A stretch of DNA of 20,711 bases from a virus, in IMG/VR virus record IMGVR_UViG_3300042516_004802, positions 1-20,711 of that record; one strand, written 5' to 3'. The notes beneath the pieces were generated by a model. It did no database searches and had not been told where the DNA came from. It was given only the letters and a program-made list of their open reading frames with translations. Both the position numbers and the translations under genes were made by a program. Shown one piece after another: positions 1 through 17,149 of the stretch; positions within the stretch are counted from its first letter, which is position 1; each line of letters opens with the position of its first letter.

Positions 1-808
1 TTAGCTGAGTTTCATAGTAAAGGTCACCCGGCAACAGGGTGCCGCCTTCTGCGGGGCGATTCTGAATCATCCAGAACTCAGCGTCAGCTTTGCATCCCTT
101 CTCTGTCATGAGCAGCAGGTTGAGAAGGGCAGTCGGATCTTGCGAGTCAGCTTCCTCGTTTCTATCTACAATAAAATCAAGACTGCCACCACCGGAAACA
201 ATGCTCTTAACTGCATCGCCGAATTTTTCACCAACACCAGTTGTGTCAACTTCGGGCGCAGTCAGATTCAGTGACCACTCCCTGAGAAGCGACTGAATCT
301 TCCAGTCAGACTCACTGACACTTAGTGCTATTTCTAGATCACTTGAGTTGACCTTGAAAATAGAGACACGATTGTTTGTCGCCCCACGCAGGGCATCCGC
401 TCGCGTAGCGTAAAAACTAACGCGACCAAGTTGATCTACATAAACGTAGAAAGTTGCTGTAGTTGTCTGCCCAACGTCAGCGGCTCTCACATAAAACTGA
501 GAGGCATCCGAGACTTTGTAAAAGGCGGAAGATTCACTTGTGATGTGACTTCTGTTTGAACCAAGAAGCCACTGACCGCCAAAATAAGTCCCGTGCCCAT
601 CCGGGCAATCAGGCCCAGCGAGCGCCGAATTGATGTTAAAAGGAAGTCCGACAGCGCTGGTAAGCGTAACTCGATCTCCACTCCAGAATGAACTGGAGCC
701 CAAGTAGATCGAATTGCTGGTTGTGTTAATGCTGGAGGCATCCAGCTCAACCGGATCGGGAGCTTCTCTCTTTAACTTAAGCTGGCCTCCTATGCCTAGG
801 ATTGCCAT
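1..808 (-). CDS. Tail-tube-like protein, third copy (3' end outside window)
   Basis: This open frame starts at ATG 808 and is still open at base 2 after 269 codons, so it is cut by the window edge. The ATG shares its A with the TAA of the gene before it (TAATG), which suggests coupled translation. Residues about 172-269 look like a phage tail-tube domain: REWSLNLTAPEVDTTGVG near 176-193, then an aspartate-rich loop (IVDRNEEADSQD, 213-224), a Leu-rich helix (LLNLLLM) and LLPGDLYYETQL at the edge. The same pattern is in the tube protein at 15868-16662 (DWSLEISRTEIDVTTIG). Residues about 25-160 form a Gly/Ser/Thr-rich beta-type region that begins INTTSNSIYLG and corresponds to the insert INTTTDVISIS of that tube protein. 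Perhaps 30 residues are missing. Its position after the J-like gene suggests a tail-tip or distal-tail role. That role is inference. Confidence 0.75.
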   Translation of the reverse strand, partial: MAILGIGGQLKLKREAPDPVELDASSINTTSNSIYLGSSSFWSGDRVTLTSAVGLPFNINSALAGPDCPDGHGTYFGGQWLLGSNRSHITSESSAFYKVSDASQFYVRAADVGQTTTATFYVYVDQLGRVSFYATRADALRGATNNRVSIFKVNSSDLEIALSVSESDWKIQSLLREWSLNLTAPEVDTTGVGEKFGDAVKSIVSGGGSLDFIVDRNEEADSQDPTALLNLLLMTEKGCKADAEFWMIQNRPAEGGTLLPGDLYYETQL

Positions 809-1200
809 TAGAAGGTACCGCTAAGAGATCCAGTGATTTGGAAGTTAATGCTGCAGGCGGTAACTTCGCCAACAGAAACAGGTGTGCTGACCTGAGTAAC
901 AATCGCAGTGCAGGTCAAAGAAGCACCACCAGAAGCGGTATTCAGAACCATCTGGATGCTGCTTGTGCCGCTGCTCAGAATGCTGTTCAGGAAGCTCTTT
1001 GTCGTAACGTCGTCGGGATCATAAAGAACGGTCGCCGAACCAGTTGCACCACGCAGACCTTCAACATAGGTGCGATCAACGCCGCCCAGAACAGTGGTTT
1101 CTAGGGCGTCACGGGAGATGTCAACTGAAAAGTTTCGGCACTTTCCAACAGCGCTACCCCCAAAGCGGATCTCACCGCTATTGCCGGTCAGGACGGCCAT
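808..1200 (-). CDS. Small tail-tube-like protein (second copy)
   Basis: A 130-residue protein that is almost a bare tail-tube domain. CRNFSVDISRDALETTVLGG (residues 21-40) and RGATGSATVLYDPDD (50-64) match, in the same order and spacing, DWSLEISRTEIDVTTIGKA and AEATGSATVYMTDED of the 264-aa tube protein at 15868-16662. It lacks that protein's N-terminal insert. Tube domains of this family form hexameric rings that stack into the tail tube, and related folds build tail-tip rings. The gene follows the M-like gene after 20 nt with no clear Shine-Dalgarno sequence, and its TAA overlaps the next ATG. It lies about 15 kb downstream of the main tube gene in the tip cluster, so I infer a tip or distal-ring component, not the main tube. 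The family assignment is solid by motif; the role is open. Confidence 0.8.
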   Translation of the reverse strand: MAVLTGNSGEIRFGGSAVGKCRNFSVDISRDALETTVLGGVDRTYVEGLRGATGSATVLYDPDDVTTKSFLNSILSSGTSSIQMVLNTASGGASLTCTAIVTQVSTPVSVGEVTACSINFQITGSLSGTF

Positions 1201-1220
1201 GAGCTGTTAAGCCAACACTA

Positions 1221-1628
1221 CTACTGCAGTCTAATCTCGGCGAGAAGAATCACGCGAACACTAGAGCGCCCATTAACTACACTTTCAATGCTCGGTGGTT
1301 GATTGTCGTCAAAGTACCACTTAAGCCCCGCCGACATTGAACTCGCATCAAGCCATCCTTTTAGATTGGTAGATGCGCCAGCAAAAATGCTACTTGGCAG
1401 TGTCAGGTCAACGAGAGAGCCTTGCGCACTGTTATACGCTTGCATAATTAACGCAGCGTTGTCATCTGAGATATTGTCAAATGACAATGTGAGTTGGCCT
1501 TTTCTTGGCAGACTTCCCCAAAGCCTAAAAGAGCTAACACCAGATTGACTGTCAATTTTTGTGCTAGCCCACTGCGGAGCAGAAAAACTTCTGCTCGTGG
1601 GCGTTAGCGATGGGAAAGTAACTGCCAT
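1221..1628 (-). CDS. Minor tail protein, probably gpM-like
   Basis: A 135-residue protein without Cys, with no signal peptide or membrane segment. The centre (RKGQLTLSFDNISDDNAALI, then a helix with YNSAQGSLVDLTLP) resembles gpM-type minor tail proteins, in which a beta core is followed by a helix and a Pro-containing strand. The C-terminus (SSVRVILLAEIRLQ) would complete a sheet. The ATG shares a base with the TAA of the J-like gene (TAATG), so translation is probably coupled. In lambda gpM sits upstream of L, so its place after J here is a rearrangement if the assignment holds. The gene lies between J and two tube-like genes, consistent with a tail-tip structural part. Similarity is general, so the name is tentative. 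Confidence 0.6.
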   Translation of the reverse strand: MAVTFPSLTPTSRSFSAPQWASTKIDSQSGVSSFRLWGSLPRKGQLTLSFDNISDDNAALIMQAYNSAQGSLVDLTLPSSIFAGASTNLKGWLDASSMSAGLKWYFDDNQPPSIESVVNGRSSVRVILLAEIRLQ

Positions 1629-4600
1629 TAGCCCTGTATGCTCCAGTTTGCAGAATCAGTGAAGCCCTCTGCCATTTTAAGAATGCCAGAAGAGTTGACA
1701 GGCATGTGAACAGCTTCAATGCTAAACCCGCCCTCTTGAACTGGGCTAATGCGCTCAATTTGATAAGTACGTGATCGTGTCTCGGAATTTATTAGCGTAA
1801 AGATAATTCCACTTGGGCTAGCAGTCTTGCCGTTATTTGAAACAGTTAGCGTAGTCTGAGCTGGAACATTTTGACTCGTCGGATCCCAAGCAAGAACTGT
1901 GTAGCTTCCGTTTGCAAACGGTTGCGTGCTAACGAGAGAGCCATCTTGCAAAACCACGCCATTGCGCAGCTCGTCATAGTAATTCAGGTCAAGCGCAACT
2001 CTGATGTAATCGCCGGGCTGAATCGCAGCAACGATACCTTCGTGCGTAGTTTCAAACTTGACTGCGTGCTCAGGAATTCTCCTCATCCTGATAATAAACT
2101 TTGCTGCATCAATTGCGTGCTGCCTATTTGTTACATAGTCAGACAGATCAACAGATTCAATTGGGGCGGTATCAGATCCGTATGGAGATACTTCCCTGAC
2201 CAGCACCTCTTTTTCAACTGCAAACATGCCAGGGTTTGCCAAATTACTGGACAGCCTCTCCTCTCTGTACCTGACACTCACCTGAATTGGCCTGCGATCC
2301 TCCGGTTCCATGAACTCCATCGCAAAAGTGCCTTCCTTGATATTCCCTGCTGTGAAAATGCCTTTGATTGAAACGGCGGTGGGGGAAGAAACGGTTCCAG
2401 GCCATGCGGGGCGCAGCCAGAATTTCCCGCCAGCTTCGCCAAAAAGCAAAAGATGAGCAGCTGCTGCATCTGCTGCCCATTGACGCAAATTCGTATTTGA
2501 TGTAATAGCGCCATCAAAGAAGTACTTATGCGTCTGACACCAACTACTAGCAGCGGTAAAACTTGCCAGATCAATTTGCTGATCTGTTACCTGATCGCCC
2601 TTGCCGTATCTTGTATTTGTCAGTAGATCCTTGAGAACCTCGGGGAAAAGATGCGTGTTGGCGAGGCCGGAAGTCACGTAAACAGAAAACTGTCCAAACT
2701 GCTGCCACTCACTTCCAGACCTCATGTTGAGGCCAAGAATTGCAAGATTGTCATAAAGCGGCGCCTCGCTGTTATCTATGTATTCATTAATTGCAACTAT
2801 TTCATGCTCTGGGCCGCTATCAGCACTTGACTTGACTTCTTCATAAACAAAGGACTCAGCAAGCTTGCCCCAGTAGTCAAGATAAGAATCAACATCGGCG
2901 TATCCAATGCCGATCTCTGCAAGCCCACCCCTCTGCGCTGATGCGATCCTGAATTCGTTCGGTCCCTGCGATGCACGATTGGCGCTAGATATAAGCTGCT
3001 TGCCATAGAAGCTGACACTGACTCCACCAGAGCTGACAGTGCGAGTCGTCTTCATTCCAGAATCAACCAATTCAAGATCACCAGTTGCAACGCCAGACCT
3101 GATCTCCCAACCGCTGAGCGGCTCAACCTGGAACTCCCATCTCTTTGTAGATGGCATCACAAACTTGATGCTGTTAAATACGCTTTGCTGGGTGATTCCG
3201 CGAATGCCAAAACACTGCGGAAGCTTGGTGTATTCGCCAGAAGTTCCAGACTCTCTGTAGCCAATTCTGAAGAAGCTGTAGCGCTCTTCAGAGCTGCTCA
3301 TTTGTCCACTGTTGAAAATATCAACAACCAACGTATCGCCAGGGCTAAGCTTGTCGCCCTTTTTGCTGAGACAAGCTTTATTGTCGATCTGAGTGTAACT
3401 AAGGCTGTCCTTGAAATTACACAAGCCATTAATTCTTATGCCCAGAGCACTGCGAATGCAGAAAGATACAATCCGGCACTCGCGCAGGGTTGAAAAGTTA
3501 GCAATTGCAACCCTGAAAATATGAGATTGATTTGTCGCTGTGTAGAAAGCTGGGGCGGGACTATCCTCGTCTCCGTTCGCCTCAATATTGGCGAGTGGAA
3601 TCGTGCTTCCAATTGAGCCAGACCTGATGATCCTGAAGTCAGCAGTCAGTGGATTGCCGCCACTGGTCGGCGGCTCAAATGCAGCGTTGGAGTTGAAGTT
3701 GTTATCAGTCGGAGTGCGATTTGTGCATATCGCTAAGGCCGAACCTATTTTGTATAGCTGCCCAATCTGAAGAGCGTCATCATAAGAATTTTGCCTACCA
3801 GCCACAGCAGAAGCAACATCGCCACACCTTTCTTCGTGAGAAGAGTTAGCCGCGAAGTCGCGTGTTTTTGTAACGCTGATTGGACTAAACGTGTAATTTC
3901 TTGTGGTTACAGGCGGGGTGCCTGATGTGGTTTCGGAGATAACGGCGGTCACTGAGTGCCTTGCCGAAACCTGCTTGCCAGTATTTGCCTCAGCCCATGT
4001 AAAATATTTAATTACATAGGTACCAGTCGAAACCGAACCAAGTGCAGACTGTGCCGACGAGCTATTAAAAGTCCAAGTAACACTTATGTTGTTGTTATTG
4101 ACGACGACATTGCTTCCAGTTAACCAACTTTTGACAGTAGTATCACTTATTCCGGGGAATGGGTTTTCCGATACAGTTCTCTTTGCTTCCCACGAATAAG
4201 GTTCTGCGCTTGCAACAAATTCAGTGCTGGCGTCAGAAGTGTTAGAAAGATAGTAGGACCACTGACTGCCTGCTGCGCTAATCAGTCCGCTTCTACCAGA
4301 GAACTTGGCTTTGTATTTTTCGCGCTGAGCCAATGAAACATAGTCAAGCTCGCAAACGACTCTCGCTTCTGCGTCTCCGCCACCGCCTTTCTTGCCACCT
4401 CCACTCTCAACATCAACTGTCAGCTGTGCGTTAACGCCAGGGCGAAGACTTGGATTGACTCGGTAGCCAAGTCCATTGCCAATCATTGAATAAACGCCAA
4501 ATTGCGTTTGAGTGTTGGGGCGATGAGAGTGACAGAAATTGGAAGCAAGAGCGCCGGAGCTATTTTGCACTGCATAAACATTGCTTGGCGATAGCGCTCC

Positions 4601-5263
4601 GTCATCATTTGAAGTGCCCGCAACTCTGTCAGAAGTGGTAATTCTTCCGCCATTGGGCCTGTAGTAAACAGTAAAGCGAGCGGCATCGTTTCCGCCAAGC
4701 AAGTAGGAGCCAAGGGTGTTATTACCAATTGCAATATTATTAATGTCAATCGAATAGGTGCTTACTCCTTCGCCAATTAAGAACATTGCACGCAGCAACT
4801 GCCCTTTGTCAAGCGTTAAAATCTCGCTCCAAATCAAAGGGACATTGATCCTGATTCCGCCGTAATATTCACCACCTATCAGCTCACGTTTTGCGTAAAC
4901 AAGTGGAACTGCGCTGCCAATTGTTGCAATGTCTTGGACCGAATCAAAACCCTGCCTTGGTGCATACTTTCTAATATTTGATGTTGTTTCGCCCTGAGTT
5001 TGTACTTGACGCAGCTGCGGTTGCTGCTGCTGCGACATTCGCGGCTTCAGAAAAGCAGAAGCAATCGAAAAGCCAGTCGAAAGCAGTGTTGTAATGACAA
5101 GCGCATAGATCCACCAGTCAGGACCAATGGCTACAACACTCGGCTGAGGGCCTTCTGCTGCACGCCTTCTAACCTCTGCGATGTAATACCGATACTGTTC
5201 GTCTGTCAGCCCAAGCAGGTCAGCAATGTAACGATCAGACGGAAGCAGAGGGTAGTCACTCAT
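1628..5263 (-). CDS. J-like tail tip / host-specificity protein
   Basis: At 1211 residues it is close to lambda gpJ (1132). Residues 1-48 are a charged helical leader (LLGLTDEQYRYYIAEVRRR), followed by a hydrophobic segment at about 49-71 (DWWIYALVITTLLSTGFSIASAF). A hydrophobic segment of this kind is typical of gpI, so this could be an I-type leader fused to J. Next comes a conserved tip region with VQDIATIGSAVPLVYAKREL and LLRAMFLIGEG, then long beta-rich stretches and a Gly/Lys linker (GGGKKGGGGD, near residue 290). The C-terminal third (about 840-1200) looks like a J-type hub with fibronectin-like segments. Such proteins form the trimeric tail tip and touch the host receptor. Its first eight bases (ATGAGTGA) overlap the end of the K-like gene. 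The hub call is strong; receptor contact is family knowledge. Confidence 0.85.
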   Translation of the reverse strand: MSDYPLLPSDRYIADLLGLTDEQYRYYIAEVRRRAAEGPQPSVVAIGPDWWIYALVITTLLSTGFSIASAFLKPRMSQQQQPQLRQVQTQGETTSNIRKYAPRQGFDSVQDIATIGSAVPLVYAKRELIGGEYYGGIRINVPLIWSEILTLDKGQLLRAMFLIGEGVSTYSIDINNIAIGNNTLGSYLLGGNDAARFTVYYRPNGGRITTSDRVAGTSNDDGALSPSNVYAVQNSSGALASNFCHSHRPNTQTQFGVYSMIGNGLGYRVNPSLRPGVNAQLTVDVESGGGKKGGGGDAEARVVCELDYVSLAQREKYKAKFSGRSGLISAAGSQWSYYLSNTSDASTEFVASAEPYSWEAKRTVSENPFPGISDTTVKSWLTGSNVVVNNNNISVTWTFNSSSAQSALGSVSTGTYVIKYFTWAEANTGKQVSARHSVTAVISETTSGTPPVTTRNYTFSPISVTKTRDFAANSSHEERCGDVASAVAGRQNSYDDALQIGQLYKIGSALAICTNRTPTDNNFNSNAAFEPPTSGGNPLTADFRIIRSGSIGSTIPLANIEANGDEDSPAPAFYTATNQSHIFRVAIANFSTLRECRIVSFCIRSALGIRINGLCNFKDSLSYTQIDNKACLSKKGDKLSPGDTLVVDIFNSGQMSSSEERYSFFRIGYRESGTSGEYTKLPQCFGIRGITQQSVFNSIKFVMPSTKRWEFQVEPLSGWEIRSGVATGDLELVDSGMKTTRTVSSGGVSVSFYGKQLISSANRASQGPNEFRIASAQRGGLAEIGIGYADVDSYLDYWGKLAESFVYEEVKSSADSGPEHEIVAINEYIDNSEAPLYDNLAILGLNMRSGSEWQQFGQFSVYVTSGLANTHLFPEVLKDLLTNTRYGKGDQVTDQQIDLASFTAASSWCQTHKYFFDGAITSNTNLRQWAADAAAAHLLLFGEAGGKFWLRPAWPGTVSSPTAVSIKGIFTAGNIKEGTFAMEFMEPEDRRPIQVSVRYREERLSSNLANPGMFAVEKEVLVREVSPYGSDTAPIESVDLSDYVTNRQHAIDAAKFIIRMRRIPEHAVKFETTHEGIVAAIQPGDYIRVALDLNYYDELRNGVVLQDGSLVSTQPFANGSYTVLAWDPTSQNVPAQTTLTVSNNGKTASPSGIIFTLINSETRSRTYQIERISPVQEGGFSIEAVHMPVNSSGILKMAEGFTDSANWSIQG

Positions 5264-5642
5264 GGCAGAAGCGGCGATAGTTCATGGGCTTAAGGCTTTC
5301 CGCTGGAGTCCATGTAACTCCAACATTAGGGCGAACTGAAAGCAAGCCGTTGTCAACGAATACAGCAATAGCAAAATCAGATGTTCTAGAAAGAAGTGTC
5401 ATCGCATAGTCTTCAGGTCCAAACGTCTGCTCTGTTAAATTGTACCAGTCATCCATAATTATATTCATTTCATTTCTTGCCATATGAAGATACCATTCTT
5501 TCTTAAGCTCTGGAACGTACTTTCCGCCACTTTCTATGACGCGAAAAACTAGGTGGATGCAATCTGTTGCATTTGTTTTTTCTGGGTCGGCGCACAATCT
5601 ATAAGGAAGTCCAACATATTTCATCCAGCGCTGATTCGTCAT
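5256..5642 (-). CDS. K-like tail assembly protein with degenerate NlpC/P60 fold
   Basis: A 128-residue protein. The N-terminus has the NlpC/P60 entry motif: WMKYVGLPYRL (residues 6-16), then TDCIHLVFRV with the candidate nucleophile Cys28. The second half, AIAVFVDNG (91-99) followed by LLSV, aligns with the usual HVGIYLGDG...HA segment, but the catalytic His position is Ala91 and the later His is also absent. The end (GVTWTPAESL...YRRF) fits the family's last strand. In lambda, gpK carries an NlpC/P60 domain and acts at the tail tip. Here the fold seems kept and catalysis doubtful. The start overlaps the L-like stop by four bases (ATGA) and the end overlaps the J-like start, giving the normal L-K-J order. 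The alternative is a plain structural protein. Confidence 0.7.
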   Translation of the reverse strand: MTNQRWMKYVGLPYRLCADPEKTNATDCIHLVFRVIESGGKYVPELKKEWYLHMARNEMNIIMDDWYNLTEQTFGPEDYAMTLLSRTSDFAIAVFVDNGLLSVRPNVGVTWTPAESLKPMNYRRFCHE

Positions 5643-6112
5643 GACACTGTGATTGATCCAGTCGTGGGGAGATTTCCAACAAGCTTAGTACTTAATGCCC
5701 TTTTTGGCACATGCGAATCAACGGCATCAAGTGGCGAAGAAAGCCTTAGCGTCGCTCGCTCTGTATTGACTTCAGGGCGCGAACAAACCCAAGTCTCTTG
5801 TGTAATTTGCTGAACAGTTGCGTAGGTTTGTGGATCAAGTAAAACCATCGTTATTTCGCACAACCAGTTCGACTGACAAGCTTCAACGAAAAGATTGATT
5901 GACAGTGGGTAAGGTGGCGCGATAAGCACAGCATCACTCCTGTCTCCACCCTTTGTGCCAGCGCCCGTCGTAACACCAATCGGCGCAAAATTGTAAGAAA
6001 CGCTTTGATACGTCCTCAATTCATTAACGTAAAAATTCTGATAGTTATAACCAGAAACATATGCACCTGCACTGGTCTTAAATCTGACAAAGTGGCAAAT
6101 TGCAATCGTCAT
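5639..6112 (-). CDS. L-like minor tail protein
   Basis: A 157-residue protein starting one base after the tape measure stop (TGA-C-ATG) and overlapping the K-like start, the position of lambda gpL. The N-terminal half is beta-rich with aromatic residues (YVSGYNYQNFYVNEL). The middle has GVTTGAGTKGGDRSDAVLIAP and a strand segment before LLDPQTYATVQ. The C-terminal half has ATLRLSSPLDAVDSHVPKRAL, which resembles the gpL signature of a strand, 'SSPLD' and then Pro-Arg/Lys-Arg. It is shorter than lambda gpL (232) and lacks the C-terminal Cys cluster that binds Fe-S in lambda. Probable role: a ring or adaptor between the tape-measure end of the tube and the J hub. The assignment rests on position and the short motif. 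Confidence 0.65.
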   Translation of the reverse strand: MTIAICHFVRFKTSAGAYVSGYNYQNFYVNELRTYQSVSYNFAPIGVTTGAGTKGGDRSDAVLIAPPYPLSINLFVEACQSNWLCEITMVLLDPQTYATVQQITQETWVCSRPEVNTERATLRLSSPLDAVDSHVPKRALSTKLVGNLPTTGSITVS

Positions 6113-6113
6113 G

Positions 6114-9100: not shown

Positions 9101-12100
9101 GCTTGTACTTTGCTGTCTCCTGATCAATTGACTGAAGCTGCAGTTTCAGCTCGCGTTCTTTTTGCAGTAAATTAGCCTCTCCCTCAGCGCGAACCTTGAC
9201 ATACTCCCTAGCTGCATCAACGATTCCCTGAGCGATTGGGTCAAGACCGGCACCTGCTTTTTGCAGCTGAAGATCGAAGGCGTCAATTGCGTTCTGTTGA
9301 CGCAGCCGATCATTCTCAATTAACTGACGCTCCAGCCCTTGACGCTTGTTGAAAATCTCATCCTCAACAGAGCGACGGAACTCAACAGCTTCGCGCTCTA
9401 GGTCAGTGGCGCGTTTGCGTAGATCATAAATAGTGTCTTCAATGCTCAAGCGAAGATCCTGAGCAGTGCGCTGAACGTCTATACCCTGTTGATTCAAGGC
9501 ACGAATCTTATCAGCAGTTTCAATTGATTTGAGAAGAACCTTTTCCTGTTCCTCTAAAGAAGAAGATGGAGCTTTTGCTTGCTGTGGCGCAATTCTATTA
9601 AGAATGTCTTCTCGCGCTTTTAGCCCAGCTCCAGATATACCGGCTCTCTCTCCAGAGAGCTTTGCGACTTCTGCGGTAAAAGCTTTTCTTTGATCCGATG
9701 TCAGTCCAGCAATTCGCTCACCCAGGCCAACGGTCTTATTTGATTCAATTTTTGCGCCAACAACTTTAGCAACAAGATTGAGAAAGTCGCCAACAGGCCC
9801 AGCAATTAGAGCCTGCATTTGATAATTCAGCTCGGCCCACTTTTTGCTTAAGTTATTTGCAGAATCGCCAAGATCAACAAGATCATTGTATCCCTGAACG
9901 CCGACCTTGCTGATAATTTCAGACTGAATTTGCGCAGCTGCTTGTGTAACTCTTCCCGATTCAATTAGCTTGGAAATATAGTACTCTTGCTGTCTGCTTG
10001 CAAACAAGCCAGCTTCTTTTAACTTATCAAAACTCTCTGTTGGATACTTAAGTGCTCGGCCAGTATCCTGTGCAGCTTGGCTGAGGGTATCAAAAGCAGT
10101 GCCAAGCGCCGTACCAACCAGGGACAAACCAAAGCCAAGCCCACCACCAGCAAAGCCGCCAGCAGCACCGCCAAGGCCGCCGCCAACAGAGGCCCCAATG
10201 CCCTGCCCAAACAGAAGTGGGAAGGCACCACCAATCAAGCCTTCGCTAACTGCGCGACCACCCCTAGGGCCAAAACGGCGAGTCAGAAATTCAGCATCAG
10301 GAGCACGACTCTCAAGCTGACGATCAAGATTCGCGGCAGTTTCACGAAGTTGCCTTTCAAGGCGATCAAAACCCTCTGATGTTGGATCAAGAATTGCCCT
10401 AAATTCCTTGAGAACCGCGCTGAGTGCCTCAAGCTCCCTAATAGATGCAGTCGCTGGCTTGGCCAGTTCCTTGAGTCCAAGCACAGCCTCTGGACCTTGG
10501 GCTACAGCCTGCTCAAATCGACGACCGAAATCACCTGCTCCACCACCTGCTCCACCACCTGCCCCACCACGACCTCCACCGCCAAATCCAATCCCTCCGC
10601 CAAATGCACTGCGGACAGCGGAAGAGATGCGATCAAAGAGATCGGAAACAGACTGGCGAAGTGAACGAGACTGATTTTCAACTTCCGAGCTAGCAACGTC
10701 AATTGTTGGTGGAAGAGCCCTGCCAATACCGGACAACCGACTAATTCTTGCCGGATCTGCCATAAATCCAAAATTCGCAGCAGAGAGAGCAGGGCGACCA
10801 GACGCACGGAACGCATCTTGGGAAAGAACCGATAAACCCCTAGCTTCGGATCTGCGATAAGCCTCCTGAATTCTTTGTTGCTGAACAGCAGTCAGATTTT
10901 GCGATGCAGGAGGCAGTGCCCCGGCCATACGAGAACCAGGAAGTGCTAGCTGACTCTGATTTAGCTTTTGCGTAGCAGCAATAACTTTATCAATAAACTC
11001 TCTATAGTCACCAACAAGTCCAACCCAGGGATCTGGAGTTCTAACTGTACGAAAATATTTCGCAGCGGCAGAAGTGATTTCTTTTTCAAGCTCACCAGGG
11101 CCAAGCTGTCTTTGCGCCGACATAAATGAAGGGATTTCCGCTGCAAGGGCTCGACGGCTTGCAGCTCCGGCTAGATCAGTTGTAATAGCAAAGTCAGGCA
11201 GAGCCCTTAAAAGGTTGCTGTAGATCTCTGGTTGAGTTGTAAGCTCTGCTATATCTTTTCTGAATTGCAACATCATGTTGCCGAATTCAGACGTTGCGCC
11301 AGGCGTGCTAATGCCTCCATTGAAGGGGAGGCTTTTCAAAGGACGAAAACCGGTTGAAGGTCGATTCGTAAACTCAAATCCTTTATTTGTCGCAGTAAGC
11401 GTTTTAATACCTCTTACCAGCTCTTCTTCACCAAAAGCTCTTTCCGTTGCCGCCTGAATCCTAGGATAGGATTTTTGCATTTCTGCAATATATGTGGCAA
11501 CAAGATTTCTGACAATCTCAATCATGAAGCGAGAAGGACTCGCAATGCCAAACACATCTTTAATGGCCTGAGCAGCAGCACTGGCAAAAGTTTTTGCAGC
11601 AGCGGCTCCACGAGAGGCCCCTTTTCTTAGATTTGCGTTAAATGTTTCAGAGATATTTTGGGCAACATCGCCAGCAGCAGGCTTGCCTGTATTAAACTCA
11701 CGAACAATCTTGTCAATTCCCTGCGCAGGAGAAACACCACCAAGGAATTTTTCGCGTGCTGCACGAGCGTTTCTAAGACTTTCAATTGCTTGTTCTAAAC
11801 CTGAGCCAGCTTCGCTGGAGCGTCGCCCAGAGCCACCTTGACCAGCAAGTATTTGCTTCTGAAGAGATACATACCTTCCAGCAAGCCCAACTTGCTCAGT
11901 CAGAGCGTCTAAATTATTCTGGGTAATTACATAATCTTCTCTCTTGGCATTATTTAATGTTTGCTGAAGGCTATTTAACTCAGAGGTTACGTCAACTCCC
12001 TTGCGCTGAAGATTTATCAGTCCCTGCTCAATGATTGCGCCAGAAGCAAGGGTGTAACGAAGACGACGAGGAGTGTCAAGTCCAAGAGTTTCGCCGCCCC

Positions 12101-13805
12101 TAGTCGTTCCACCCCGCACGCCAAAGCCAGGAGGCAGCGCTGGGCCACCACGCATCTTCCAAGCATCTGCAATGGCTTTTTCTTCCTCACGCATCTTTTG
12201 CTGCGCAAGCGAAACAGCTGCTCTTGTTTCATCCTGAAGACGCCTGCGCTCCTCTTCAAGAGCTTTTAATTTTTGCTGGCCTAAAGCAGTTGCAGCTTGC
12301 GTTCCACGACGAAGTTCTTCCGCTTCCTGATCAATGGCTTGTAGTTTTTGCTTTGCGAGCGCAACTGCAGCTTCGGTAGATTCACGATTTGCCTTGGCCT
12401 CCTCAAGCCTTGCGGCAGGAGAACCGGGAATCAAATTGCGAATCCTCTGTCCGCCGGGAGTAACCGTTGAAGGCAGCTCGCCGCTAATCGGTGAAAAACC
12501 AGTTCCAAGAGTACCAAATACTTGCGTTTGCGCTTTTTGTGAGCGATTTGCACGCTCCATTGACATGCGCTGCCTGTCAATTTCACGAGTAATCCGCTGA
12601 GCAGTTAAAAGCTGGTCGTCAGCAAGTGCAGAGGATGCTTCTTCAAGACGATTGCGAAGTTCAAGCTTTTGTGCTTCACCAAGATTGGCCCTGTTGATTC
12701 TGTCTTCGATTCCAGCCTGCCTCGCAAGCTCGTCGCTTACGCGCTTTTGATATGATTCTCTCTCCTTGAAAGCTCTAAGACTTCCCAGATCAGTTGCAGG
12801 ACCAGCAAGTGATTGAATTGAAGACTTTTGCCCTCTTAGCCCAATGCTAGAAAGCTCATCGTTAACAGCAGAAATTACTTCTTCTAGAGCGCGAAACTCA
12901 TTGCTCGTATAAGGAACAAGCGTTTGAATTGCTCTGAGCTGCTCTGCATAAGAAGACAGGGCGGCCTCGCTTTTAACTATTTGACCGTAAGAGCCGACTA
13001 GCGATGAAACCAAATTTCTGGCGCCAGCGATTGAGCTTTCACCGCCAGCCCCAATATTGACTTTGGGCGCAGCAGATGAGAGACCAAATGCAGTTGCTTT
13101 TAATTGCTGTTGCCTAGCCTGAAAGATCTGCTGACCAGCTGCCTGCGAAGCAATAGTAAAACGATTGAATTCGCTTGAGGCAATTCTGGAATTACTAGCA
13201 ACAAGCTTCAGCGCATCTGCTTGAGCGCCAAGTTGGGCAATAGTCGATCCAAGCTGTCGAGTAAGAACTTTGCCGCTAACACCTCTCTCTTGAGACTGGC
13301 CAAGTCTTAGATAATCATCGGCAAGCGTGTTAATTGCTTCAGATGCTCTTTTGGCCGCCCTTGCCTGTTCTACACTTTTAGTTGCGGTTCCAAGCCTTGA
13401 TTCAGATGACTCGAGCTGAGACTGGGCTTTTACCAAGTCACTTTGAGCTTGAGCCAGTCCTTTGATTGCCTTTTGCTGTCTTTCAAGTACCTGATTATAC
13501 GCCTTTGTATTTGGATTTAGTTGATTTAGCTTTGACTGAGCAGAGGCAATTTGCGTTGCATAAGATCCAATTGCATCCCCGGCCCCGTCAATCGCCTTCT
13601 GCGAATTCTTTATTGTGGCTTGGAGTGCTTTTAGCTCAGCATCAAAGCTATCAAGATCGCTCGTTGCCCTTTTAACATTAATATCTAGCGGTGTACCACT
13701 TATTTTTTGGACGACTGCATCCAGCTGGCTAACCTTGCCAATAATTCGATCAACCTTTGATCCCCCATTAACAACTAAATTAATAGAGGCGTCAATTCCA
13801 GCCAC
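6114..13805 (-). CDS. Tail tape measure protein with embedded M15-like peptidase motif
   Basis: At 2563 residues this is a very large tape measure. It is rich in Gln, Ala, Glu, Arg and Leu, with long coiled-coil stretches, including three 25-residue repeats at about 473-547. Residues about 1060-1090 are Gly-rich, and about 1188-1252 form a Gly/Ala/Leu hydrophobic stretch (GLIGGAFPLLFGQGIGASVG). Residues about 1660-1765 hold a His-rich segment: NIHYHF, then RHSAGSQHYRSQGFNAFDIP with His1720, His1726 and Asp1736, resembling the metal site of M15-type peptidoglycan peptidases, though His-to-Asp is three residues longer than usual. FGIASPSRFMIEI and, near the end, GLMGEAGPEAIIPL are typical of tape measures. 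The start is GTG; an in-frame TAG lies just upstream and there is no ATG between. A terminator precedes it. The protein sets tail length and probably enters or degrades the wall at infection. Confidence 0.93.
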   Translation of the reverse strand: MAGIDASINLVVNGGSKVDRIIGKVSQLDAVVQKISGTPLDINVKRATSDLDSFDAELKALQATIKNSQKAIDGAGDAIGSYATQIASAQSKLNQLNPNTKAYNQVLERQQKAIKGLAQAQSDLVKAQSQLESSESRLGTATKSVEQARAAKRASEAINTLADDYLRLGQSQERGVSGKVLTRQLGSTIAQLGAQADALKLVASNSRIASSEFNRFTIASQAAGQQIFQARQQQLKATAFGLSSAAPKVNIGAGGESSIAGARNLVSSLVGSYGQIVKSEAALSSYAEQLRAIQTLVPYTSNEFRALEEVISAVNDELSSIGLRGQKSSIQSLAGPATDLGSLRAFKERESYQKRVSDELARQAGIEDRINRANLGEAQKLELRNRLEEASSALADDQLLTAQRITREIDRQRMSMERANRSQKAQTQVFGTLGTGFSPISGELPSTVTPGGQRIRNLIPGSPAARLEEAKANRESTEAAVALAKQKLQAIDQEAEELRRGTQAATALGQQKLKALEEERRRLQDETRAAVSLAQQKMREEEKAIADAWKMRGGPALPPGFGVRGGTTRGGETLGLDTPRRLRYTLASGAIIEQGLINLQRKGVDVTSELNSLQQTLNNAKREDYVITQNNLDALTEQVGLAGRYVSLQKQILAGQGGSGRRSSEAGSGLEQAIESLRNARAAREKFLGGVSPAQGIDKIVREFNTGKPAAGDVAQNISETFNANLRKGASRGAAAAKTFASAAAQAIKDVFGIASPSRFMIEIVRNLVATYIAEMQKSYPRIQAATERAFGEEELVRGIKTLTATNKGFEFTNRPSTGFRPLKSLPFNGGISTPGATSEFGNMMLQFRKDIAELTTQPEIYSNLLRALPDFAITTDLAGAASRRALAAEIPSFMSAQRQLGPGELEKEITSAAAKYFRTVRTPDPWVGLVGDYREFIDKVIAATQKLNQSQLALPGSRMAGALPPASQNLTAVQQQRIQEAYRRSEARGLSVLSQDAFRASGRPALSAANFGFMADPARISRLSGIGRALPPTIDVASSEVENQSRSLRQSVSDLFDRISSAVRSAFGGGIGFGGGGRGGAGGGAGGGAGDFGRRFEQAVAQGPEAVLGLKELAKPATASIRELEALSAVLKEFRAILDPTSEGFDRLERQLRETAANLDRQLESRAPDAEFLTRRFGPRGGRAVSEGLIGGAFPLLFGQGIGASVGGGLGGAAGGFAGGGLGFGLSLVGTALGTAFDTLSQAAQDTGRALKYPTESFDKLKEAGLFASRQQEYYISKLIESGRVTQAAAQIQSEIISKVGVQGYNDLVDLGDSANNLSKKWAELNYQMQALIAGPVGDFLNLVAKVVGAKIESNKTVGLGERIAGLTSDQRKAFTAEVAKLSGERAGISGAGLKAREDILNRIAPQQAKAPSSSLEEQEKVLLKSIETADKIRALNQQGIDVQRTAQDLRLSIEDTIYDLRKRATDLEREAVEFRRSVEDEIFNKRQGLERQLIENDRLRQQNAIDAFDLQLQKAGAGLDPIAQGIVDAAREYVKVRAEGEANLLQKERELKLQLQSIDQETAKYKLSVEDRVRQMVIQREEFSRDVGKVKFQLERSIGDYVIKVEEYRLAMARRRFDLAVEEGNIAKATEIARQEGLSTPATGKNYANVGGFQGGRQMLHGIPGFAGFDRSHATETNIHYHFAGKNPAETKAVADMLKGYGYQITEFGQYGQRVGRHSAGSQHYRSQGFNAFDIPGSSMGGPMSQIVAGQKKVHALIGDFLYGRSQQAKAGVPTATGASNAASTAAPTAPTAPSMPALPSAPQMVEVNDLLQTYIRLQNDLKSALASNNQLLIEKNSIELAGARFQLEQRALAPLREYSEQNRQLQLEIDNRRVRNRLLMEGANPKIADAEVRVLQIQRDLDSVLTGINVSTNELVKQELKRLKLNPELVDAEFTLTEATLARLIATEQDVKKQEELRSALQKVLDLKNQLSTTATGEANTAAGTTRGIAAQESSFTQQLGQVFADKTEELSTPGIDAARSIVDTFTTGIQDSFKGITGLSTLRERFDLQYEVDQLEKLRSKTQEGTDEYKRYTDQINQAKLKLNEMSNVGVQVKNALSQMMAGIADAFAEMATKIIAKQILMFVWGTALKALGIAASIGSAGATSLPGSMGQATNTGLDTGAGNITDMLGGLAAKGAYFNGGIASFGSGGMFTNSIVSSPTLFRFADGGIRKTGLMGEAGPEAIIPLSRGADGRLGVDATGFSDAISEARDALDEASDAMAQGDGATGLELSGGVSDGYGAMGLKSGEAQGKMSRATAMAVSDSRGAVEMIKRITQENDAKAAAAAASASPETRELYKLLATKDSNTIREITNNQIGSADGTDQFAAGSQQQLAYGDAISAARGVLASEISGGEPDQMQQVGEAGAITNSREFIEKITDRISSPDSSKKAEASAFGDSRNAVGKSSGSQSAISTKETISALMQARDSRETSSAISQTREVLSSVSNMNKEKNMERVMESNVTAITKPLDIKYESQMINNVEYVTVDQYQRGLAEAAERGRALTLSSLKNSVKARRQIGI
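10532..10567. repeat. 12-bp tandem repeat coding a Gly-rich linker
   Basis: Three direct copies of CACCTGCTCCAC on the plus strand, the third with one change (CACCTGCCCCAC). On the coding strand they give the Gly/Ala run GGAGGGAGGGAGD inside the tape measure, a likely flexible linker before the hydrophobic stretch. Such a repeat can change length by slippage without breaking the frame. Confidence 0.8.
12166..12390 (-). repeat. 75-bp tandem repeats coding a coiled coil
   Basis: Three copies with an exact 75-nt spacing, judged from the TTTTGC anchors beginning at 12196, 12271 and 12346 on the plus strand. They code for AAVALAKQKLQAIDQEAEEL, AATALGQQKLKALEEERRRL and AAVSLAQQKMREEEKAIADA. This is a 25-residue repeat with a coiled-coil pattern (Leu/Ile/Ala spacing, charged flanks). 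Tape measure genes often grow by such internal duplication. Confidence 0.85.
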
Positions 13806-13849
13806 TTTGATCGACCCAGACTTCTCATCAGTCTAGCCAGCAAGAGAAA

Positions 13850-13871
13850 AGCCGCCCCGATTGGAGCGGCT
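13850..13871 (-). terminator. Rho-independent terminator after the chaperone genes
   Basis: On the minus strand AGCCGCTCC and GGGGCGGCT pair as nine base pairs with one G-U, leaving an AATC loop, and a run of four T follows (the last stem T plus three). The hairpin overlaps the TAG stop of the T-frame (13870-13872). It sits 44 nt before the tape measure start, so tape measure expression would depend on read-through or on a promoter I cannot recognise. Confidence 0.85.
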
Positions 13872-14115
13872 ATCGACGAGACTGACGCTTGATTTTCTCC
13901 ATCTCTTGCTCTTGTCGCCTATTCTTGATTGCAAAGTAGGCAGACCACAAAAGCATTTCTTCGTCTGTGACTTTAGTTTTTAGTTCAGACAAAGTGCAAT
14001 GAAGAACTTCGGCGAGAGATAGCTGGAAGAACAATCTCCCGTCCGATTCAAGCTCAGACTCAATCGCTTTTGCTATCAGCTTCTGCTTCGTCCTCGCTAT
14101 TAGGACGCAGCGCAC
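13870..14115 (-). CDS. Tail assembly chaperone, T-like part (probably made by frameshift)
   Basis: This frame overlaps the 3' end of the G-like gene and is open downstream of a TGA at about 14122-14124 on the minus strand. Its first usable start is GTG 14115, with no ribosome binding site before it and no suitable ATG. I therefore think it is reached from the G frame. Fused at the AAAA site the product is 187 aa: 122 residues of G followed by 65 in this frame. The C-terminal part (FFQLSLAEVLHCTLSEL, then DEEMLLWSAYFAIKNR) resembles T-domains of lambda-like chaperones, which bind the tape measure while G-domains recruit tube subunits. The acidic 'EEM..W..YF' pattern is the best sign. It ends in the hairpin of the terminator. 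If translated alone it would be 81 aa. Confidence 0.75.
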   Translation of the reverse strand: MRCVLIARTKQKLIAKAIESELESDGRLFFQLSLAEVLHCTLSELKTKVTDEEMLLWSAYFAIKNRRQEQEMEKIKRQSRR

Positions 14116-14434
14116 AAAGGATCAGTTTTTGCAGATCTTCATCAAGGATCTCGCGCTTCAGCACAGGAATGTCGCCTGGGCGGAACAGCTTTTCGCCGTT
14201 CTCATCAAGTGCTTTGGAGACAAGCAGCTGCATTGCAAAGTCACTAGCGTTGTCAGACCTTGCATCTTTTTGCGCCTTTTCACGTTCGGCTGCCGTCAGC
14301 GGCGTAACGTAAAAAACAAACTCATCGCCATTGCTGAGCAGGACTTCCTGCTTGATCGGCTCAAAATTTGCTGCTTTACGAAGACGGTCGATAGCCCTGA
14401 TAGGACCAGTGGCTTGGGCTGGTGCGTTTGCCAT
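14060..14434 (-). CDS. Tail assembly chaperone, G-like part
   Basis: A 124-residue protein between the tube-side genes and the tape measure, the place of lambda gpG. Residues about 28-60 (KQEVLLSNGDEFVFYVTPLTAAEREKAQ) form a strand-rich start with the 'TPLTAAER' turn seen in tail chaperones. A helical body follows (DFAMQLLVSKALDENGEKLF). The C-terminus is acidic (NSEDEAEADSKSD). The start at ATG 14434 has no evident Shine-Dalgarno sequence: the eight bases before it are TTTCCTTT. The last 56 bases overlap the T-like frame, which lies at +1 (equivalently -2) to this one. It is expected to coat the tape measure during tail assembly and to be absent from the virion. Confidence 0.8.
   Translation of the reverse strand: MANAPAQATGPIRAIDRLRKAANFEPIKQEVLLSNGDEFVFYVTPLTAAEREKAQKDARSDNASDFAMQLLVSKALDENGEKLFRPGDIPVLKREILDEDLQKLILCALRPNSEDEAEADSKSD
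14066..14074 (-). promoter_or_regulatory. Candidate programmed frameshift site (+1)
   Basis: On the minus strand the G frame reads AGC AAA AGC GAT TGA. A tRNA on AAA can move one base forward and still read AAA because four A's are in a row, and the next codon is then GCG in the T frame. A second candidate is CTT TGT at 14119-14114: CTT can slip to TTT, as at the known prfB site. A -1 slip is excluded because that frame carries several stops in the overlap. Confidence 0.5.
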
Positions 14435-14488
14435 AAAGGAAACATGGTCAGCCCGAAGCCTACTGCATTATCATCTAATTGACAATAA

Positions 14489-15808
14489 TCAGCGCGTTAC
14501 CTCTTCCCAATCAACATTTCCATAGATGCTGCTGGAAGCAGTGTCACAGGAAACGGCAACAGTAAACGTCTGCGGAACAGAGGTAAAGCTATTCCTCTCA
14601 AGCTGAAGCTCAAAGATCTCTTGGCGCAGAATGTTTGCCATTGAGGTTGACTGGTTAGAAGACGAGAAGTAGCCAGAGGCAACCACGTCACCACCAGTCA
14701 AAGAGGTCGAAGAGATGTTGTACTCAACAGAGGAGTCGTCTCCCCCGCTCACCCAAGTGCCACCAGTTACGGCACCACCCAAAATAACTTCCCACTTGTA
14801 GTTATGACCATTGCCAACCCCCAAAAGAGATGCGGCGGTAGGAATGACGATAGAGGAAAGCTCAGTGGTCTTTAGTCGCAGCGAAACAACTGGATATTTT
14901 ACCCCAGCAGTTGTCAGCGTATAAACTGAATTAATTGCAGTGCCAATCGTTTTTTGCTGGCCGCGCAACTCATAGCCACCTTCAGAAAGAACCGTCGAGC
15001 AGATTTGCTTGAACGTACTGGAGCTAGTAGTAGCTGCAGTATTTGTAATTTCGTAGCGAATCGGCAGGCAAGCAGTTCCAATATGCGTTGTGCTCAAAAT
15101 GTTTGCATGATGAAACTCATGGCAAACAACAGGCTCTCCATTAATTACAAAACCCATGCGCACAGTTCCAACACCAAGCCACTCAATGTCGGTAAACATA
15201 ATTTGCGCTGCATCCACATCAAGCGTGATACGAGAAGCGCCATTGCCATCAAGCTTGTCAACATTCCATCCCGTATCACTTCCGCCGTAAACACCGCCAA
15301 AGCGGCTGATTTTTGTTTCTACAAGAGAACCACTAGTAGAAGTACGGCGAACAAAGCAAAGGCTGTTTTCATCTGCCCCAAGCTCAAGATAGTAGCCGCT
15401 GACGGTATCAAAATAGCCAACGCGCTGGCGAAGCCCTGTTTTCGGCGTAGCAAAAACAAAGCTATTCATCACAAGCAGCGACTTGCCAGGCTGATAAGCA
15501 AAGACTCGCTTAGTCTCGCGCAACACCTGGGAACCAGAAGCTGTTGTTACGGCAAGATCAACAGAACCATGATTCGCATTGAAGCTAGTGGAGCCACTCG
15601 TTGCTGTTGAAGTATTCCAAAGCCCGTTATCAGCAAAACGATGACTGGAATCAAACAGGGTCAACGGCGCAGAAATGCGCAGTCTTCCAAAAGCATCAAC
15701 AGACGACCTTGAGAAACTTGCATCAACAGCAAGGCGTCCTTCATCAGTAGCGCCAATCTCTTTTGCGGCGCCAGTCGGCAAAGTACCGTGAACAACAGCA
15801 TCAGGCAT
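14489..15808 (-). CDS. Phage structural protein of a type common in aquatic phages
   Basis: A 439-residue, beta-rich protein with few charged runs. I recognise the N-terminal pattern VDAFGRLRISAPLTLFDSSH (residues about 37-56), followed by WNTSTATSGSTSFN and AYQPGKSLLVMNSFVF, from predicted structural proteins of cyanophages and other aquatic viruses. Its function has not been settled as far as I know. The middle has RQRVGYFDTVSGYYLELG and GTVRMGFVINGEPVVCHEFHH, and the C-terminus has LQLERNSFTSVPQTFTVAV. The start has a good AGGAG eight bases ahead of the ATG. The gene lies after the tube terminator and before the chaperones, where lambda has nothing equivalent. A tail or capsid decoration, or a fibre-like part, would fit. 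I see no catalytic motif. Confidence 0.75.
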   Translation of the reverse strand: MPDAVVHGTLPTGAAKEIGATDEGRLAVDASFSRSSVDAFGRLRISAPLTLFDSSHRFADNGLWNTSTATSGSTSFNANHGSVDLAVTTASGSQVLRETKRVFAYQPGKSLLVMNSFVFATPKTGLRQRVGYFDTVSGYYLELGADENSLCFVRRTSTSGSLVETKISRFGGVYGGSDTGWNVDKLDGNGASRITLDVDAAQIMFTDIEWLGVGTVRMGFVINGEPVVCHEFHHANILSTTHIGTACLPIRYEITNTAATTSSSTFKQICSTVLSEGGYELRGQQKTIGTAINSVYTLTTAGVKYPVVSLRLKTTELSSIVIPTAASLLGVGNGHNYKWEVILGGAVTGGTWVSGGDDSSVEYNISSTSLTGGDVVASGYFSSSNQSTSMANILRQEIFELQLERNSFTSVPQTFTVAVSCDTASSSIYGNVDWEEVTR

Positions 15809-15832
15809 GACGAAACTCCTAAAAGAAAAAAA

Positions 15833-15850
15833 GCCCCGCCGAAGCGGGGC
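15833..15850 (-). terminator. Rho-independent terminator after the tail tube gene
   Basis: A perfect 7-bp stem with a TTCG loop on the minus strand (GCCCCGC-TTCG-GCGGGGC), followed by eight T's. It stands 18 nt downstream of the tail tube stop and 24 nt before the next start. It is the strongest of the four terminators in the window. Confidence 0.95.
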
Positions 15851-15867
15851 GTGGACTTAACTCAAGC

Positions 15868-16662
15868 TCAAGCGACAGCGCTGAGATCGAAGGTCGGCTG
15901 ATCCACAGGACGGAAGTTGATGCTCACCTGCTGGCCATCATCCGGGTTAACGGCGAGAGAAGCAGAGGTCAGAGCAACCTGCATGTAGATCGAACGGCTC
16001 AGGGCATTGCTGACCGTGCCACCGCTGATCACTTGGTCAACGTAAAGACGGACGCTAGCGCCAACCTGCTTACGCAGCAGCACGTCTTGGATGATCCGGT
16101 TTGCAGTGGAGGCATCCTCATCCGTCATGTAAACGGTTGCAGAGCCAGTGGCTTCAGCAAAGCCAGGGATGAAGGTACGGAAGGGCACGAACTGGCCAGG
16201 AGCTTTACCAATGGTGGTAACGTCGATCTCAGTACGAGAGATCTCAAGGCTCCAGTCACGAACCTCCGCAACAGAGGAGAAATCGGCGTAGTAAACCTCA
16301 AACTTGTTAGGAGAGGCAAGGGTGCCGTCATCCGAGAAGTTGATGTTTGCACCACCCTGAGTAGCAGCAACAGTCAGGGCGCCAGTTCCATTGTTGTAGG
16401 AAGTGACGTAGTAGGTGCTGCTGGTGCTCAGGCTGCCAGAAGACAGAGCAGGCATCACGTTGGACGCATCAGGCGTCACGGTTACGCCTGTAGTCGGGTT
16501 ATAAATACGGAACTTGACAGGATCGCCCGCAAGGAAGTTCAGGGAGGGGCTGATCGAGATCACATCAGTGGTGGTATTGATGGCAGTTTCGATGAAGCCA
16601 TCAATCGTACCGGCTGGCTTGTAGTAAAAAGCGCCGGAAATGCCGGACAGAACGGTTGCCAT
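15868..16662 (-). CDS. Major tail tube protein
   Basis: A 264-residue tail tube protein. The tube domain is split. A short N-terminal strand (ISGAFYYKPAG) is followed by a beta-rich insert (about 26-125) containing TYYVTSYNNGTGALTVAAT, a module also found in other phage structural proteins, probably displayed on the tube surface. The tube core then follows: VRDWSLEISRTEIDVTTIG (134-152), EATGSATVYMTDED (170-183) and a final strand VSINFRP. Tube subunits form hexameric rings around the tape measure. The gene is flanked by a leader hairpin at 16688-16700 and a strong terminator at 15833-15850, as expected for an abundant protein. The ATG has no Shine-Dalgarno sequence that I can see. Position between the tail terminator and chaperones supports the call. 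Confidence 0.9.
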   Translation of the reverse strand: MATVLSGISGAFYYKPAGTIDGFIETAINTTTDVISISPSLNFLAGDPVKFRIYNPTTGVTVTPDASNVMPALSSGSLSTSSTYYVTSYNNGTGALTVAATQGGANINFSDDGTLASPNKFEVYYADFSSVAEVRDWSLEISRTEIDVTTIGKAPGQFVPFRTFIPGFAEATGSATVYMTDEDASTANRIIQDVLLRKQVGASVRLYVDQVISGGTVSNALSRSIYMQVALTSASLAVNPDDGQQVSINFRPVDQPTFDLSAVA

Positions 16663-16720: not shown

Positions 16721-17149
16721 TCATTTCACACTTGCCTGCCAACCTGTATCAAGCCTTCCCATAAAATGAGAATAGTCATCAAGTGTTTGAAAAAACGGCC
16801 CTCTAATTTCACTCGTTCTTACATAAACACCAGAAGATGTTTTCTTTGATAAATTTATTTCATCAATAACACCCTTCGCAACTTCTAGCATTTTCTGACA
16901 GCGAGCCGGTCCGTATCCCTTTTCAGAGAAGCATCGAATAATTAAAGCTCCCCTTGGGTAATCCCAAGACCTAGCAAGCGCGGACTCGGTGGTGACACCA
17001 AAAGTTAGGTTGACTCGCACGTATTCTTTTGGTGGATCAGGCGGAACAAAAGTGATGTTGTCGAAATAGACAGGGATTGGAGGAGTTTGCGAATTAAAGG
17101 CGCTGAGCAGTGGGCCTTCAATTTTGGCGCGAATGGCTTGATAGTTCAT
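16721..17149 (-). CDS. Tail terminator protein (DUF4128-like, lambda gpU role)
   Basis: A 142-residue protein that fits the phage tail terminator family DUF4128. The N-terminal helix (YQAIRAKIEGPLLSAF) is followed by PIPVYFDNITFVPPDPPKEY, the usual 'strand, two or three Pro, strand' turn, then VRVNLTFGV and GALIIRCFSEKGYG. The family caps the growing tube as a ring and joins it to the head. The ATG shares its A with the stop of the tail completion gene (TAATG), and the tail tube gene follows, so the head-neck-tail order is intact. Length is normal for the family. Confidence 0.8.
   Translation of the reverse strand: MNYQAIRAKIEGPLLSAFNSQTPPIPVYFDNITFVPPDPPKEYVRVNLTFGVTTESALARSWDYPRGALIIRCFSEKGYGPARCQKMLEVAKGVIDEINLSKKTSSGVYVRTSEIRGPFFQTLDDYSHFMGRLDTGWQASVK

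Follow-up and report, generated by a model that had tools for sequence, protein, structure and literature searches.

Two tail-tube homologues in the tip gene block of uncultured siphophages, probable ring proteins of the tail tip

By sequence-profile comparison, the phage fragment analyzed here encodes three homologous tail-tube proteins: the main tube protein (TTP), encoded with the shaft genes, and two relatives, T2 and T3, encoded after the genes for the tip hub. Gene order, co-inheritance and fold prediction together suggest that T2 and T3 are tube-derived tip rings that sit between the M/L/J hub and the final ring of the main tube, and that T3 probably helps to anchor the side fibres. We put the probability of this reading at roughly 0.65.

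Gene order in the window

The window is the whole virus record, a 20,711-base fragment classed as linear. Its structural genes lie on the minus strand, and the TTP, T2 and T3 frames are open. In the order of transcription, the genes encode a capsid protein, connectors, the terminator, TTP, a 439-aa virion protein, an assembly chaperone and the tape measure protein, followed by L, a K-like protein, J, M, T2 and T3, the last being cut by the window edge. The genes discussed below are:

16721-17149, minus strand: tail terminator (phrog_179, 3e-12)
15868-16662, minus strand: TTP, main tail-tube protein, 264 aa (phrog_1407, major tail protein)
14489-15808, between TTP and the chaperone: 439-aa virion protein (phrog_1645)
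14060-14434, minus strand: tail assembly chaperone (phrog_344, 2.5e-5)
6114-13805, minus strand: tape measure protein, 2563 aa, the longest ORF between the chaperone and L, assigned by position
5639-6112, minus strand: L, gpL-like, 157 aa (phrog_25799)
5256-5642, minus strand: K-like small protein, 128 aa, between L and J, putative function
1628-5263, minus strand: J, hub or central tail protein, 1211 aa (phrog_27845, tail protein, 1e-15)
1221-1628, minus strand: M, distal tail protein like lambda gpM, 135 aa (phrog_15525, minor tail protein, 1e-11)
808-1200, minus strand: T2, minimal tail-tube protein of the tip cassette, 130 aa (phrog_10528, 3e-12; PF18906, 8.7e-7)
1-808, minus strand: T3, tail-tube protein with a large insert, 269 of 303 aa within the window

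The whole T3 (303 aa, L012:10001-10912) is found in a nearly identical sister record of 70.7 kb, which supplies the 34 missing residues and carries a gene for a 1032-aa fibre after T3.

The tube fold of TTP is interrupted between strand 1 and the WSL strand by an insert of some 110 aa, and the TTP gene sits between the terminator and the assembly chaperone. A protein of cyanophage KBS-S-2A encoded at the same position is 49% identical to it, and among cultured phages the only TTP relatives are those of KBS-S-2A and of cyanophage S-2L (27%). The best relatives of J are found in Synechococcus phages S-CBS1, S-CBS3 and S-LBS1. Since the relatives of TTP and J lie in cyanophages, the host is likely cyanobacterial.

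The tip genes include counterparts of the lambda set. Iterated profiles lead from L to gpL (PF05100) and from M to gpM (PF05939) of the canonical lambda-type tip of genome G032 (locus L058), at 4e-16 and 2e-8, respectively, and the J profile reaches J of the same genome weakly (3e-5). L is shortened to roughly the size of the tube-fold (HDI) domain and lacks the iron-sulphur part; in lambda gpL the HDI comprises residues 1-166 (PMC10721106). J has a hydrophobic stretch from residue 54; its N-terminus looks like a membrane segment of the gpI type, making an I-J fusion probable. The K-like protein is found in part of the loci only and is missing from many cassettes. Since M, L and J all have counterparts in the window, T2 and T3 come in addition to them.

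Some other features of the locus are recorded here. An 81-aa ORF in another frame (13870-14115) overlaps the end of the chaperone gene, an arrangement that resembles programmed-frameshift chaperone pairs. In the relatives L078, L085 and L095, the phrog_1645 virion protein is encoded about 6-7 kb upstream of the terminator; it was not found in the loci of some other relatives. By the general rule of 0.15 nm per tape measure residue, a tape measure protein of 2563 aa predicts a very long tail of roughly 380 nm. By eye only, J of genome G014 (L142:7308-9812) appears to contain an insertion of intein/Hint-like type close to its start (CFLGHTPVRTPNG...HHTFVAGGIRVHNAG).

TTP, T2 and T3 are homologous tail-tube proteins

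The similarity of T2 to TTP is detected directly, by BLASTP (E 4e-9, 34% identity over 68 aa). Moreover, T2 matches phrog_10528 (3e-12) in PHROGs and PF18906 (8.7e-7, above its cut-off) in Pfam. For all three pairs, comparison of separate family alignments with hhalign gave links (T2-TTP 9e-14, T3-TTP 7.6e-8, T3-T2 4e-4), and the larger non-redundant sets did so as well (T3-T2 1.3e-11, T2-TTP 6.8e-10, T3-TTP 3.5e-6). Six other tail families of these loci (J, K, L, M, terminator and chaperone) served as a control against T2, T3 and TTP and gave E-values of 0.069 or weaker except for J-TTP (0.0013). That match pairs the C-terminus of J with the TTP insert and was dropped, as the insert alone gave only 0.12. 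A renaming of gpM as T2 or T3 was likewise rejected: a separate M is present, and hhalign gave 0.45 for M-T2 and 0.29 for M-T3. These data bear out the preliminary description in its claim of three tube-like proteins in one phage.

T3 itself has no PHROG or Pfam match, and 4 of its 18 relatives match a major-tail-protein PHROG, weakly; T3 is assigned to the family through hhalign to the TTP and T2 families only. Hence, a tail-tube hit exists for T2 in the libraries and for T3 at the level of family profiles, without a direct library match. Searches of PDB sequences with the T2, T3 and TTP profiles gave nothing relevant apart from a weak T2 match to a "phage tail protein" (E 0.5). No homologue of T3 was confirmed in cultured phages, where the weak matches were to the tube of phage S-H1 only, or in 84,980 prokaryote genomes.

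The preliminary description had based its claim on a shared pattern, and this part fared less well. TTP and T2 both contain the exact string ATGSATV. The motif "E/D..TT.(L/I)G", however, does not occur literally; the strings aligned at its position are EIDVTTIG, ALETTVLG and EVDTTGVG. In TTP as well as in T3, strand 1 and the WSL strand are separated by an insert, and INTT occurs in both inserts. The notion of a common insert nevertheless finds no support: the inserts alone do not match each other (E 0.065), and INTT is not conserved in the relatives of T3.

The AlphaFold2 model of T2 (pLDDT 73, pTM 0.66) has a tube fold at moderate confidence and predicts the tube β-sandwich with an E-loop and a flanking helix. 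Its PDB matches include the tail tubes lambda gpV (8k36) and R4C TTP (8gtb), and at E <0.001 nearly all matches are to tail tubes or to related rings of tails or injection machines. The T3 model is of low confidence (pLDDT 62), and its top PDB matches are mostly tube proteins at E 0.006-0.05, none reaching 0.001. As to whether the two proteins might adopt unrelated folds, T2 is thus modeled as a tube, and T3 has weak fold matches from a low-confidence model. The E-loop, which forms the contact between rings in tail tubes, ranks among the best-conserved regions in T2, T3 and TTP alike, and the C-terminal strand of T2 and T3 is conserved too. T3 has a large and variable insert, which T2 lacks.

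A fixed J-M-T2-T3-fibre cassette

Iterated profiles merge the three tube families, and strict single-family models were therefore used for all T2, T3 and TTP counts; those for T2 and T3 were run on 269 fetched loci. T2 lies immediately upstream of T3 in 113 of the 114 non-redundant T3 loci with room upstream, and the two genes overlap by 1 nt in 77 of these 113 paired loci. The lone exception has a frame-broken T3, and its locus also carries T2. J and then M precede T2 in 90 loci. In two loci of a second subgroup (L076 and L095), M comes before L as in lambda, and T2-T3 still follow J.

A long fibre gene follows T3, and in 97 of 101 such genes the first 120 residues match a single profile. A search of the viral collection with this fibre domain alone gave 363 relatives. 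The best 80 loci were examined: all 80 have T3, and the J-M-T2-T3-fibre order is entire in 67 of them, the rest being cut by locus ends; loci beyond the best 80 of the 363 are more distant and may differ. The invariable pairing, the one-base overlap and the tight co-variation described below fit a T2-T3 complex, while the T3 insert and the conserved fibre N-terminus encoded after it suggest fibre docking.

These features raise the possibility that T2 and T3 instead form an outer collar or adaptor at the tip that holds the side fibres, with the tube fold as a ring scaffold and the channel not lined by it. Such a collar would suit the fibre gene after T3, with its N-terminus conserved in 97/101 cases and its association with T3 in the best 80/80 loci, and likewise the large variable insert of T3. 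T2, however, lacks an insert and resembles an ordinary minimal tube subunit, and conservation in both T2 and T3 is among the highest in the E-loop. Moreover, T2 distances do not follow those between fibre N-termini (r 0.11), and T3 distances follow them only weakly (r 0.34; n = 10). We consider an outer collar rather unlikely.

T2 and T3 belong to the tip block

TTP, T2 and T3 occur as three distinct genes in 18 records, and pairwise sequence-distance correlations were calculated over up to 15 of these. T2 and T3 vary together (0.90), both follow J (J-T2 0.80, J-T3 0.82), and L, J, M, T2 and T3 inter-correlate at 0.5-0.9. The terminator, TTP and the chaperone, which served as the positive control, make up a second block at 0.92-0.97 (TTP-terminator 0.97, TTP-chaperone 0.92). 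Correlations between the blocks range from -0.22 to 0.15 and are not significant; r is -0.01 for TTP-T2, 0.04 for TTP-T3 and -0.14 for TTP-J.

The same division is seen in natural swaps. Genome G032, with a record covered over its full length, has a TTP that is 82% identical and neither T2 nor T3; its tip is canonical lambda, with gpM (PF05939), gpL (PF05100), gpK (NlpC/P60 plus JAB), an I-like protein and gpJ. Genomes G004 and G005 carry the cassette, and the protein at their main-tube position has no match to TTP and weakly matches major-tail PHROGs. The two distance blocks and the natural swaps place T2 and T3 in the tip block. In addition, the T2 and T3 genes come after J and M and not at the main-tube position between the terminator and the chaperone and tape measure. 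Collectively, these sequence data argue for T2 and T3 as tip parts rather than shaft variants. Co-inheritance marks membership of the tip block; a position in the channel is not given by it.

The preliminary description had offered extra rings at the tip, a tip built from duplicated tube subunits and a minor tube variant as options. Extra rings are the best supported of the three: T2 and T3 are inherited with J, the fibre gene comes next after them, and a phage with an 82%-identical tube and a canonical lambda tip has neither. The formation of rings as such we infer.

A minor tube variant is disfavored. According to this explanation, T2 and T3 would be minor shaft subunits mixed into the main tube or capping it, like SPP1 gp17.1*. 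They are sequence homologues of TTP, and the E-loop and next strand of T2 resemble those of TTP (RTYVEGLRGATGSATV vs RTFIPGFAEATGSATV). In contrast, T2 and T3 form clades of their own (see below), their distances do not follow those of TTP, the terminator or the chaperone, and the two genes occur with an unrelated main tube and are missing beside a closely related one. This makes a role in the shaft improbable.

Proposed role of T2 and T3 in the tip

In the preferred reading, T2 and T3 would be structural proteins of the tail tip descended from tail-tube proteins. They would form one or two tube-fold rings, either two homohexamers or one mixed 3+3 ring, and carry the DNA channel on from the last main-tube ring to the M/L/J hub. 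The T3 insert is expected to face outward, where T3 probably helps to anchor the side fibres. We infer the presence of both proteins in the virion, ring formation, copy number, the order of the stack and fibre docking. Several findings count against this reading: the tip already has the lambda set of M, L and J, the T3 model is of low confidence, distances of T2 and T3 follow those of the fibre N-terminus not at all and weakly, respectively, and a related hub occurs without T2 and T3 in S-CBS1, S-CBS3 and S-LBS1.

A more specific version, which we advance tentatively and hold to be possible rather than probable, is that a mixed 3+3 ring or two stacked rings of T2 and T3 adapt the six-fold symmetry of the tube to the three-fold symmetry of the hub and carry the side fibres. 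In this scenario, two genes would do what conformers of gpM or a double-domain distal tail protein do elsewhere, and the tips would represent a widespread class among aquatic siphophages.

Alternatively, T2 and T3 could be assembly factors, for example a scaffold that nucleates polymerization of the tube and is not kept in the virion. Their position in the tip block fits a tube-initiating role. The tube-fold proteins of solved tips are structural, however, and both T2 and T3 have the conserved E-loop and C-terminal strand that ring contacts would need. We judge a purely transient role to be very improbable.

Origin of T2 and T3

A tree built on the tube domain separates T2, T3 and TTP into three clades, each with 100% bootstrap support (support values of 100/99 for T2 and 100/97 for T3), and other phages' main tubes branch between these clades. 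The alignment has 128 columns only, and the deeper branching order is beyond its reach. The separate clades, with tubes of other phages between them, show that T2 and T3 are not recent copies of the phage's own TTP, and a recent duplication was rejected on this ground. For the option of duplicated tube subunits, this means that deep shared ancestry stands, while the clades are ancient and separate and do not represent copies of the own tube.

That T2 and T3 are remnants of a second tail operon gained by recombination, for which one might cite that the nearest cultured relatives of T2 are main tubes of other phages, is hardly credible given open frames with strong conservation and a fixed order across more than 100 contigs, and loci that on examination contain no second tape measure, chaperone or terminator.

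Further tube genes were noted in relatives. In Synechococcus phage S-H1 (L128:19582-20423), the main-tube position is occupied by a tandem pair of tube genes with 48% identity. G017 has a fourth tube gene about 5 kb past T3 (L129:6120-6992), which shares 59% identity with the phage's own main tube. G014, a phage with lambda-type L-K-I-J, encodes a T2-like tube protein right after the tape measure (L154:3361-3768), which groups in the tree with the main tubes of S-H1 and MED4-184.

Comparison with known tail tips

Tube-fold proteins of tail tips are already well known and are usually too divergent to be seen by sequence. Lambda gpM forms a six-membered ring and is topologically identical to the tube protein, and the ring next to it consists of three gpL tube-fold domains (HDI) and three gpJ domains (PMC10721106). 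In T1, gp37 is a tube-fold protein at the tip (PMC11945409). T4 gp48 and gp54 form the start of the tube and have been described as a platform for tube polymerization (PMC3004832); in Mu, the tube starts with gp43 (PMC11915804). The distal tail protein of JBD30 has two tube-like domains and takes part in holding the fibres (PMC11445458). A literature search, with subscription journals mostly outside it, gave no case of two sequence-recognizable TTP homologues in a lambda-type siphophage tip. Here, two relatives of the tube are recognizable by profiles and locked in a tip cassette that moves independently of the tube. The natural swaps, which go both ways, offer a direct view of how tube proteins are recruited to tips. 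Moreover, the T2-T3 cassette marks a large group of uncultured siphophages, several of them with cyanophage relatives, and the adsorption apparatus of cassette-bearing siphophages has no described representative in the sources searched.

Compared with tail tubes (lambda gpV, R4C TTP, PHROG 10528 and 1407, PF18906 and PF06199), the likeness is direct for T2, which shares the predicted fold, and at profile level for T3. In contrast to these tubes, T2 and T3 are encoded after J and co-vary with the hub, and the phage keeps a separate TTP. Lambda gpM and the distal tail proteins of PF05939 are tube-fold rings next to the hub, and the role of T2 and T3 would be alike; however, T2 and T3 have no sequence match to M (E >0.2), and the phage's own gpM-like gene adjoins them. 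T4 gp48/gp54 and Mu gp43 are separate tube-like proteins between hub and tube, and T4 also has two. Those phages are contractile, whereas no sheath gene was seen here, and the comparison is by role only, from papers. JBD30 gp49, a trimer with two MTP-like domains, places two tube-like units per repeat at the junction between six-fold and three-fold symmetry and is part of the fibre attachment site, in one polypeptide as opposed to the two genes for T2 and T3. Finally, S-CBS1, S-CBS3 and S-LBS1 have related L and J hub proteins and an M gene after J. In place of T2 and T3, they carry a second M-like gene after J (L285, L284 and L283, respectively; both M-like genes belong to phrog_15525), and their main tube is of the phrog_290 family. 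This second M-like gene suggests that this type of hub often takes on an extra ring protein.
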